Shown in pieces: positions 16,363-18,831 of a DNA stretch of 64,000 bases (position 1 is its first letter; each line of letters starts with the position of its first letter). The translations under genes were made by a program, and so were the position numbers. Under the pieces are notes generated by a model. That model searched no databases. It had not been told where the DNA came from and was given only the letters and a program-made list of their open reading frames with translations. The stretch is from Ohtaekwangia koreensis (lineage in GTDB: Bacteria > Bacteroidota > Bacteroidia > Cytophagales > Cyclobacteriaceae): assembly GCF_900167975.1 (NCBI RefSeq), contig NZ_FUZU01000002.1, positions 689,501 to 753,500 on the forward strand, written 5' to 3'.

Positions 16363-17244
16363 TCAGGCCTTAGGGTGCGCCTGGTCGAAAACCTTTTTTA
16401 ATTTTTCAATTGAGTTGTGGGTATATACTTGCGTGGCCGAAAGACTGCTATGTCCAAGTAAGTCTTTTACAGCATTTATCTCTGCACCTTTGTTTAACAA
16501 ATGCGTAGCATAGGTGTGTCGTAAAACGTGTGGGCTTTTTTTCTCTGCGGAGGAATTTTTAATGAGGTGATCTTTTACAATTCTGTAAACCATCATAGGA
16601 TAACATGGCTCACCTTTATCTGTAACAAGTAGCAATCCGTGGTCTTGTTTTGTCACTTCTCTGTTTCTCACGATACTATACTCTTCAAGTATAGAAACGA
16701 GATTGACTGCAAATGGGATTACTCTTTCCTTATTTCTTTTTCCAAGAACTTTGATGGTTCTGTTCCCTAGATTAACATCATTCTCTTTTAAGGTCAATAG
16801 CTCAGAAAGACGTATACCTGTTCCGTAGAATAATTCCAGGATTAACTTTTCTCGGTGGCCAGCAAAAGTGTGTTCGAATGATTGATTATCCAGGACTTTT
16901 ACCATGTCGCTTTCTTTTACAAAGCTTGGTAATTTCTTACTGGCCTTCAGGATTTTGATCTTGAGCATCGGATCCTTTGCAATAACTTCTTCGCGTTGTA
17001 AAAATTTATAGAACGTTCGAAGGCAGGCGATTTTTCGATTGATGGATGAAGACCCTATATTTTGCTCAACGAGCTGTATGATCCAGGAGCGAATGACTTG
17101 ATAGTCGGCTGCGTCAATCTTGGTATCAGGGAAAGTTATGGTAAGAAAAGTACCGAACTGTTTTAGATCTGTTTCGTAAGCCAATACAGTATTGGAGCTC
17201 ACTCGCTTTTCGTATTGGAGATATTTGAGAAAGGAATCCACCAT
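16363..17244 (-). CDS. xerC: Tyrosine recombinase, XerC/XerD type
   Basis: A 293-residue site-specific recombinase that resolves chromosome dimers. The N-terminal SAM-like DNA-binding domain (about 1-90) is followed by the catalytic domain with all expected residues: Arg145 in GTGIRLSELL, Lys169, His239 and Arg242 in HVLRHTYATHLL, His265 in LLGHSSLSATQ and the nucleophile Tyr274 in VYTHN. Full family length and position between rpsU and hpf argue for the housekeeping Xer enzyme rather than a mobile-element integrase. Whether it is the XerC or XerD partner cannot be told from this window. Confidence 0.93.
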   Translation of the reverse strand: MVDSFLKYLQYEKRVSSNTVLAYETDLKQFGTFLTITFPDTKIDAADYQVIRSWIIQLVEQNIGSSSINRKIACLRTFYKFLQREEVIAKDPMLKIKILKASKKLPSFVKESDMVKVLDNQSFEHTFAGHREKLILELFYGTGIRLSELLTLKENDVNLGNRTIKVLGKRNKERVIPFAVNLVSILEEYSIVRNREVTKQDHGLLLVTDKGEPCYPMMVYRIVKDHLIKNSSAEKKSPHVLRHTYATHLLNKGAEINAVKDLLGHSSLSATQVYTHNSIEKLKKVFDQAHPKA

Positions 17245-17290
17245 GCTATCAGCACCAGTACAGCTTGAATAGAAGGCTGTAATGATAGCA

Positions 17291-17332
17291 ATGTAAAAAA
17301 ATAATCCCCTTTAGGAAATACCTTAAGGGGAT
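17291..17332 (-). terminator. Intrinsic terminator downstream of rpsU
   Basis: The stem 17304-17315 / 17321-17332 pairs with one mismatch around an AAATA loop, and an A-run at 17295-17301 becomes a U-run on the minus strand. It would stop rpsU transcripts before xerC. Confidence 0.8.
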
Positions 17333-17333
17333 A

Positions 17334-17381
17334 TGTGGATAAAATGATAATATATTGTGGACAAGTTGTAGCTTATCCACA
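17334..17381. other. Cluster of three DnaA-box sequences, candidate origin or DnaA-binding region
   Basis: Two perfect TTATCCACA boxes are present: one on the minus strand at 17334-17342 and one on the plus strand at 17373-17381. Between them TTGTCCACA lies on the minus strand at about 17355-17363, one base off. The surroundings are AT-rich (a stretch around 17341-17354 and another from 17382 to 17402). All lie in the 167-bp gap between xerC and rpsU. The two outer boxes can also pair as a 9-bp RNA stem, the main alternative. No dnaA gene is in the window. Confidence 0.55.
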
Positions 17382-17404
17382 ATTAAATATTTTTAATTCA
17401 ACAA

Positions 17405-17420
17405 AACGCTTTTAAGCGTT
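17405..17420 (-). terminator. Hairpin overlapping the rpsU stop codon
   Basis: AACGCTT and AAGCGTT flank a two-base centre, and a short TTTTGTT run follows on the minus strand. It may be the first of two stacked rpsU terminators. Confidence 0.4.
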
Positions 17421-17609
17421 AGGATCCTGAAGTCTCTGTTGCTCGCGATAAGCAGCACGAATGATTTGATTTCTACGTCTCACAGATGGCTTTTCGAAAG
17501 AAGTACGGGAACGTAATTCCTTTAGAACACCTGTTTTTTCAAACTTCTTCTTGAAACGCTTCAGCGCCTTGTCAATTGATTCGTTTTCTTTTACGTTAAC
17601 GATAAGCAT
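17412..17609 (-). CDS. rpsU: 30S ribosomal protein S21
   Basis: A 65-residue basic protein: [27 protein letters not shown], then [26 protein letters not shown], the S21 signature with its Arg/Lys-rich middle. S21 sits near the anti-Shine-Dalgarno end of 16S rRNA; in Bacteroidota, where SD sequences are little used, its role in initiation is of special interest. It has its own promoter and is followed by two hairpins, so it is probably expressed apart from xerC. Confidence 0.97.
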
Positions 17610-17627
17610 ATTTCTTATTTAGGGCTG

Positions 17628-17659
17628 CAAAGATAGCAGAATGTCAGTGAATTATCCAA
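17628..17659 (-). promoter_or_regulatory. Promoter for rpsU
   Basis: On the minus strand, TATCTTTG (17628-17635) lies 18 bases before the ATG, with TTG at 17657-17659 after a 21-base spacer. The upstream element nearly touches the end of the acyl-CoA dehydrogenase gene. Confidence 0.65.
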
Positions 17660-17661
17660 GA

Positions 17662-18831
17662 CTACTTTAAAATGGTGCGAGAAATAACAAGTTTTTGTAT
17701 CTCAGACGTACCTTCTCCAATGGTGCAAAGTTTTGCATCACGATAAAATTTCTCCACCGGGAAGTCTTTTGTGTAGCCATAACCACCAAAAATTTGTACT
17801 GCATCATTGGCAACTTCAACAGCCACTTCTGATGCAAAAAGCTTCGCCATAGCCGACTCCCTCGTAACATTCTCTCCTTTATTTTTTAAATCTCCAGCTC
17901 TGAATGTCAGTAGTTTAGCGGCTTCTATTTTGGTAGCCATATCAGCAAGTTTGAAGGAAATGCCCTGAAAGCTTGAGATTGGCTGGTTGAATTGATGGCG
18001 TTCCTGTGAATACTTCAATGCAGCGTCAAATGCTCCCAGCGCAATGCCAAGGCTAAGTGCAGCAATGGAAATTCTACCACCATCCAGCACTTTTAACGCC
18101 TGAACAAACCCGTCCCCCTCCTTTCCAATAATCTGCGATTTATGAACGCGACAATCACTGAAAATTAATTCAGCCGTTTCAGAAGCTCGCATTCCGAGCT
18201 TATTTTCCTTTTTGCCTGCAGTAAATCCTGGTGTTCCTTTATCAATCAAAAAAGCCGTCATTCCGTGAGAATCTCCTACCTCACCGGTCCGGACGATCAC
18301 CACAACAGCATCTCCGGACTTACCATGAGTAATGAAATTTTTGGCACCATTGATAATGTAGTGGTCACCGTCCTTGATGGCAACCGTTCTCATGTTACCT
18401 GCATCGGAACCTGTATTGGGTTCAGTAAGGCCCCAGGCGCCTATAAATTCGCCTGAAGATAACTTAGGTAAATATTTTTTCTTCTGTTCTAACGATCCAA
18501 AAAGCAAAATGTGGTTAGTGCAAAGTGAGTTGTGTGCGGCCATCGATAAACCAATTGAGCCATCTAATCTTGAAAGCTCAACAATAGCAGTAATGTATTC
18601 CAAGTATCCAAAACCAGCTCCTCCAAATTCTTCTGGCACTAATACCCCCATTAGTCCCAGTCTCCCCATCTTCTTAAACAATTGCACGGGAAATTCCTGA
18701 CTCTCGTCCCAAGTCATTATGTTAGGTCTGATTTCTTTATTCCCAAAGTCGCGGACCATTTGAGAAATCATCCTTTGATTTTCAGTTTCATCAAAACTTA
18801 TCGATTTAAGTTTGTCGGTTATAACTTCCAT
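17662..18831 (-). CDS. Acyl-CoA dehydrogenase
   Basis: A 389-residue flavoprotein of the acyl-CoA dehydrogenase family, which introduces the alpha-beta double bond in fatty-acid or branched-chain acyl-CoA breakdown. Visible hallmarks are [32 protein letters not shown], the FAD-binding [22 protein letters not shown]-like region and [23 protein letters not shown], followed by the catalytic Glu in IGEGTSEIQ. The frame extends 20 codons further, to 18891, but a well-spaced promoter lies inside that extension, so MEVITDKLK at 18831 is the likely start. Chain-length preference cannot be read from the sequence. Confidence 0.93.

Follow-up and report, generated by a model that had tools for sequence, protein, structure and literature searches.

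A row of DnaA-type sites close to the likely replication origin, probably regulatory, overlaps an rpsU 3' UTR hairpin upstream of xerC in Ohtaekwangia koreensis

Sites of the datA type consist of DnaA boxes that lie away from oriC on the same chromosome side, and they titrate DnaA. Double DnaA boxes occur in E. coli at nrdA, mioC, purH, rpoH and DARS; a gap of 2-3 bp between boxes is the one that E. coli DnaA prefers, and its binding at purH is disrupted by mutating either box or the spacing (PMC11317965, sections consulted). In E. coli, nrdAB is among the targets of DnaA, and it has been proposed as one in Caulobacter (PMC8203912, sections consulted). In Bacteroidota, bS21, the product of rpsU, is subject to autoregulation at the RNA level through a 5' Shine-Dalgarno sequence, and the Cytophagales that fit this behavior are mainly Cyclobacteriaceae (PMC9976891, sections consulted); a word search of the available main text of that paper returned no mention of xerC, DnaA or a hairpin. 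Judged by titles and abstract openings, the open-licence papers retrieved include neither one on a DnaA regulon in Cytophagales nor a description of the box site between rpsU and xerC that is the subject of this analysis.

This site resembles datA in that its boxes lie off oriC on the same chromosome side, and differs from it in having fewer boxes and in adjoining a terminator and a candidate promoter. The double boxes of E. coli stand on one strand 2-3 bp apart, a step of 11-12 bp, with one box of the pair frequently poor and an RNR promoter among the targets; good pairs of this kind are seen in several relatives, and an RNR gene, nrdB, is a putative target here too. Unlike those (PMC11317965, as far as consulted), the putative DnaA array is situated in a 3' UTR that is transcribed, its middle unit is degenerate in this genome, and one of its boxes also serves as a hairpin arm. 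It shares with the bS21 autoregulation the gene and a possible control at the RNA level, but lies in the 3' UTR where the described system uses the 5' Shine-Dalgarno sequence (PMC9976891, sections consulted). Two elements overlap at the locus, namely a same-strand DnaA-like array and a hairpin in the rpsU 3' UTR. The array would be an ordinary kind of site, for which we infer DnaA binding, in an unusual place, conserved and overlapping an RNA hairpin.

The window, i.e. the whole stretch of 64,000 nucleotides analysed, corresponds to C5:689501-753500 in a genome of 7,241,272 bases and 6 contigs, and the box site to C5:706,834-706,881. Three DnaA boxes are found there within 48 bp of AT-rich sequence, in a 167-bp gap (17245-17411) between xerC and rpsU. 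Re-reading of the sequence recovered them where the first-pass annotation had placed them: a perfect TTATCCACA at 17334-17342 on the minus strand, a middle box TTGTCCACA at 17356-17364 on the minus strand, and an inverted perfect TTATCCACA at 17373-17381 on the plus strand, the two outer boxes being mutually complementary as had been claimed. In the direction of the genes, the order is the rpsU stop, the hairpin, units 1, 2 and 3 of the array (TTGTCCACA, ATATTATCA and TTATCCACA, in 11-bp steps), the rpsU terminator and a candidate xerC promoter. Unit 1 is the middle box and forms the 3' arm of the hairpin; the inverted box forms the 5' arm; unit 3, the perfect minus-strand box, follows 22 bp after unit 1. 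Between them, unit 2 (17345-17353, minus strand) is degenerate, with 5/9 box matches, and was assigned from the sequence by its 11-bp register.

The flanking features lie on the minus strand as well. Upstream of the element, rpsU (17412-17609) is an ORF of 65 aa with homologues in 57 of the 59 genomes searched, and downstream, xerC (16363-17244) is an ORF of 293 aa, named as a tyrosine recombinase gene by the first-pass annotation and from a reading of its protein. The hairpin (17355-17382) has arms at 17372-17382 and 17355-17365 and a 6-nt loop at 17366-17371, as defined by RNA folding and covariation. A putative intrinsic terminator of rpsU spans 17296-17332, where a stem of 17321-17332 with 17304-17315 (an inverted repeat 92% complementary) is followed by a T-rich run. 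The Bacteroidetes promoter consensus consists of TTTG and TANNTTTG; the candidate xerC promoter, TTTC-N19-TACATTG (17289-17318), places TTTC at 17315-17318, overlapping the rpsU terminator, and TACATTG at 17289-17295. Of 45 distinct regions of relatives that passed a filter, 24 have TTT[CG] at exactly 19 nt ahead of the second promoter element. A simple promoter and terminator scan of 17000-17800 returned no site, the rpsU terminator included, and both features were called instead from the inverted repeat, the fold and the comparison.

Genome-wide, the perfect TTATCCACA occurs 60 times, or about once per 121 kb, near the one per 130 kb that had been anticipated and slightly above the 48 copies of the reversed-word control. 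The pair between rpsU and xerC is the only one in the genome less than 1 kb apart, the next closest being separated by 1,158 bases. By simple arithmetic a perfect-box pair spaced so tightly is expected about 0.02 times per genome, a figure limited by the fact that two perfect boxes within a self-complementary arrangement are not independent. Over the whole window the density of near-boxes (up to one mismatch) is ordinary, with 23 copies, a count reached by 13 of 100 shuffles. The earlier expectation that so tight a cluster is unlikely by chance is upheld with that reservation on independence; over the genome as a whole the perfect box is barely enriched.

Same-strand DnaA-like units stepping by 11 bp recur in relatives, again placed after the rpsU stop and before its terminator. 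The rpsU 3' regions of 110 loci, amounting to 100 distinct regions, were surveyed and all 100 entered a lag test. In the 88 distinct regions classed as "other", 15 ACA pairs (from 14 loci) occur at lag 11, whereas no other lag between 3 and 30 gave more than 2; shuffled controls gave a mean of 0.66 and a maximum of 5. Since the rpsU loci are mutually related, the lag-11 count is not one of independent events. Chance alone as an explanation for the box cluster was rejected on the genome-wide pair spacing together with this lag test. Chryseolinea-like examples read TTATCCACA-TT-TTATCCCCA-TT-CTCTCAACA (L035) and TTATCCACA-TT-TTATACGCA-TT-CCATCAACA (L038). Several relatives carry better box-like units at the place of unit 2, and good pairs of same-strand boxes 2-3 bp apart, where the present locus has units 1 and 3 at 22 bp with the degenerate ATATTATCA between. 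The unit consensus is mostly TTAT[AC]AACA (27 units; 27 loci picked by hand, 25 of them with usable distinct stretches), and in outer relatives position 6 is mostly A. As to conservation of the boxes, by which the first-pass annotation proposed to judge the cluster, the 11-bp array recurs, but 74 of the 88 other regions lack a lag-11 pair and one relative (L275) has no boxes.

The same annotation had offered, as its competing explanation, an RNA stem formed by the outer boxes. A hairpin of the two perfect outer boxes was ruled out as the best fold; in the lowest-energy hairpin the plus-strand box pairs with the middle box rather than the far outer one. The stem itself was retained, in this other pairing, as a covarying hairpin that survives box loss in one relative. 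An RNA model was built from 8 sequences (8 of 12 rows were kept, L008, L035, L037 and L038 being left out because of misalignment by MAFFT), and at E ≤0.001 it gave a single match in each of 60 genomes out of the 390 of the family. All 30 of the matched loci that were fetched lie after rpsU, and 29 have xerC downstream, the remaining one being cut short; in the 30 the element falls between the rpsU stop and the terminator. For the later model-built alignment 12 of the 30 loci were given, L273 and L276-L292 being excluded; 3 of 15 model matches, which fell on the other strand, were discarded, and L274 remained misaligned.

In the structure-fitted alignment of 12 sequences, pairing extends to 98.3% of cells, with a covariation score of 0.231 where shuffles give 0.110 (0/500 reaching it); in the free alignment the values are 97.7% and 0.195 against 0.072 (0/500). 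In both, the score goes beyond shuffled controls, as is expected of a structured RNA. Pairs with two-sided change number 2 in each alignment, which 379 of 500 shuffles reached in the structure-fitted and 58 of 500 in the free alignment; being no better than shuffles, they indicate that few events carry the covariation signal. Immediately inward of the boxes, the 12 sequences have a CG, AU or GC pair. Also, relatives do not hold the inverted box at a fixed distance: measured from start to start, it is 13-18 bp away from unit 1, which fits RNA pairing better than phased DNA binding. L275 (G224) keeps a long hairpin and has lost the boxes, in L273 the hairpin pairs different units, and in outer relatives the array persists while a hairpin of this kind is absent. 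The covariation and L275 bear out the RNA stem in part, and the occurrence of either element without the other means that the two are separable in evolution. The hairpin of the genus, made possible by the inverted upstream box, seems to have been kept by selection. Comparison of 17200-17700 with Rfam gave 8 weak matches, every one below the gathering threshold, and a known RNA family was discarded on this basis.

Arrays of the same kind occur elsewhere in these genomes. Across 59 genomes, with the own genome counted, a two-unit pattern with an 11-bp step has 32 matches against 4 for its reversal. The 7 genomes of the genus account for 18 of the 32, and a box-based pair pattern has 31 against 7 there. 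The reversed control of the two-unit pattern is probably biased (AT becoming TA), and so spacing was also examined. Pairs of TCCACA within 24 bp are no more numerous in the 7 genus genomes than those of the reversed pattern (124 against 122), and their offsets peak at 22 (19 pairs) and 11 (15), followed by 21 (11) and by 9 and 20 (9 each), orthologous sites being counted once per genome. One set of orthologous arrays lies upstream of a gene named nrdB, for the ribonucleotide reductase small subunit, from a reading of its protein. The array is present in 7/7 genus genomes, in G021 and, more weakly, in G030; the gene nrdB itself was found in 57 of 59 genomes, and of the 30 loci read for the array the other 21 have at best isolated weak matches. 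The own nrdB array comprises three box-like units in an 11-bp step at C5:933203-933231, and a promoter-like TTTG-N19-TNCNTTTG begins 59 bp from the array start in 8 of 9 loci. A further array of three units in an 11-bp step (C6:1910422-1910450) lies directly upstream of a gene that, from its protein, looks like pcm (L-isoaspartate methyltransferase); it occurs in 6 of 7 genus genomes and was not found in G006. Separately, a tandem pair CTATCCACA-AT-CTATCCACA was seen in two genus genomes (G002:C6:262483 and G003:C28:46506).

Of the six contigs, C5 and C6 were sampled for GC skew, and 590 kb of C5 around the site were then read. Along C5 the skew has mostly negative values up to about 600 kb and mostly positive ones beyond; within the stretch read, the cumulative minimum falls at C5:598,422 (third-codon positions, 546-548 kb), against 706.8 kb for the box site, so that the turn is about 108 kb away. 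The dnaA gene is on a different contig, at C6:1157 kb. An AT-rich gap at C5:590.9-591.3 kb contains several boxes, the last of them TTATCCACA, followed by AACATGACTAATTATAAATACTATATATATAATATAATAA, a TATATATA-rich tract that looks like an unwinding tract. This interval, C5:590900-591300, is likely the true oriC, and lies about 116 kb from the box site. The gene upstream of the gap was found in 16/16 chosen relatives, each with 2-7 near-boxes in the next 910 bases; these relatives were chosen by hand and are mostly genomes with a match to the hairpin model. Taken over 17 such probable oriC regions, each of 400 bases and with the own one among them, TTATCCACA together with its one-mismatch variants is present 60 times against 3.0 expected from flanking sequence. 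The pattern of last box plus tract matches in 5 of the 17 only, indicating that the tract differs in the remaining regions. Another cluster, of four near-boxes in a gap, was noted at C5:518562-518760, and its paired boxes are also present in G001, G004 and G005.

The variants found at these oriC regions provide the link to DnaA. TTATCAACA occurs 13 times (in 8/17 regions) against 0.17 expected, TTATCCACA 8 times against 0.50, TTGTCCACA 4 times against 0.17, TTATACACA 7 times, TTGTCAACA 4 times, and TTATAAACA 3 times against 0.08 expected. The unit variants of the rpsU array resemble those enriched at the family oriC. Also, the own DnaA carries near its C-terminus GGRDHSTVIHA, which we take to be its box-reading signature.

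The reading best able to accommodate these observations, to which we assign a probability of about 0.58, takes the cluster for a short row of DnaA-type sites that lies close to the origin without being the origin, and that probably regulates xerC. Comparison speaks for it through the 11-bp step of the units, their likeness to variants enriched at the family oriC, the nrdB and pcm arrays and the constant 59 bp at nrdB, to which the E. coli precedents and the signature in the own DnaA can be added. DnaA would bind the same-strand boxes cooperatively, as E. coli DnaA does with boxes 2-3 bp apart, and the bound array would adjust xerC transcription in step with replication initiation, in the manner of E. 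coli nrdAB. Formation of the rpsU 3' end would perhaps be adjusted too, and the array may also retain some DnaA near oriC. Counting against a DnaA array are the degenerate unit 2 of this locus, the A that prevails at position 6 in outer relatives, the 74 of 88 other regions that lack a lag-11 pair, the slight genome-wide enrichment of the perfect box, the unremarkable number of TCCACA pairs, the loss of the boxes in L275 and the variable distance of the inverted box.

An alternative that we consider unlikely would dispense with DnaA: the hairpin and terminator would set the 3' end or stability of the rpsU mRNA, and the box-like appearance would merely result from the stem together with an 11-nt repeat at the RNA level. 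The covariation score and pairing of the hairpin, its persistence without boxes in L275 and the position of the element between stop and terminator all agree with such a role, but it is weakened by the two-sided changes, by outer relatives that have the array without the hairpin, and by the nrdB and pcm arrays, which stand upstream of genes. Slightly less credible is a dual use of the same boxes, in which the DNA array would tie bS21 and XerC output to initiation, the RNA would fold into the hairpin, and nrdB and pcm would complete a small DnaA regulon.

That the array of DnaA-type sites serves mainly to titrate DnaA near oriC, leaving the neighbouring genes unaffected, appears improbable. In 18 genomes (same contig, linear coordinates; own, G002, G003, G004, G006, G021 and 12 of the 16 chosen relatives), 34-406 kb separate the site from the oriC region, and 75-118 kb do so in the genus and G021, as titration would have it. 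This distance may simply be a result of gene order, however, and the boxes are few; moreover, the array lies directly upstream of the candidate xerC promoter, a position that favours gene regulation over titration, and nrdB has the same layout. More doubtful still is a different DNA-binding regulator with a DnaA-like site: it would explain why the units depart from the E. coli box in its strict form and mostly have A at position 6 in outer relatives, but not the enrichment of the same variants at the family oriC. Finally, the first-pass proposal of a candidate replication origin, prompted by three boxes within 48 bp of AT-rich sequence, is very probably wrong by the test that the annotation itself had set, and can be set aside: the GC skew turns elsewhere, and so does one find elsewhere a superior cluster of boxes, accompanied by an AT-rich tract and by a flanking gene shared by the chosen relatives.

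The preferred reading, that of a regulatory array of DnaA-type sites, leads to predictions on the position of the origin in these Cytophagales and on the box variants accepted by their DnaA. It further predicts a small DnaA-controlled gene set made up of nrdB, pcm, and xerC or rpsU. If true, the link between DnaA and xerC would join the start of replication to the resolution of chromosome dimers.
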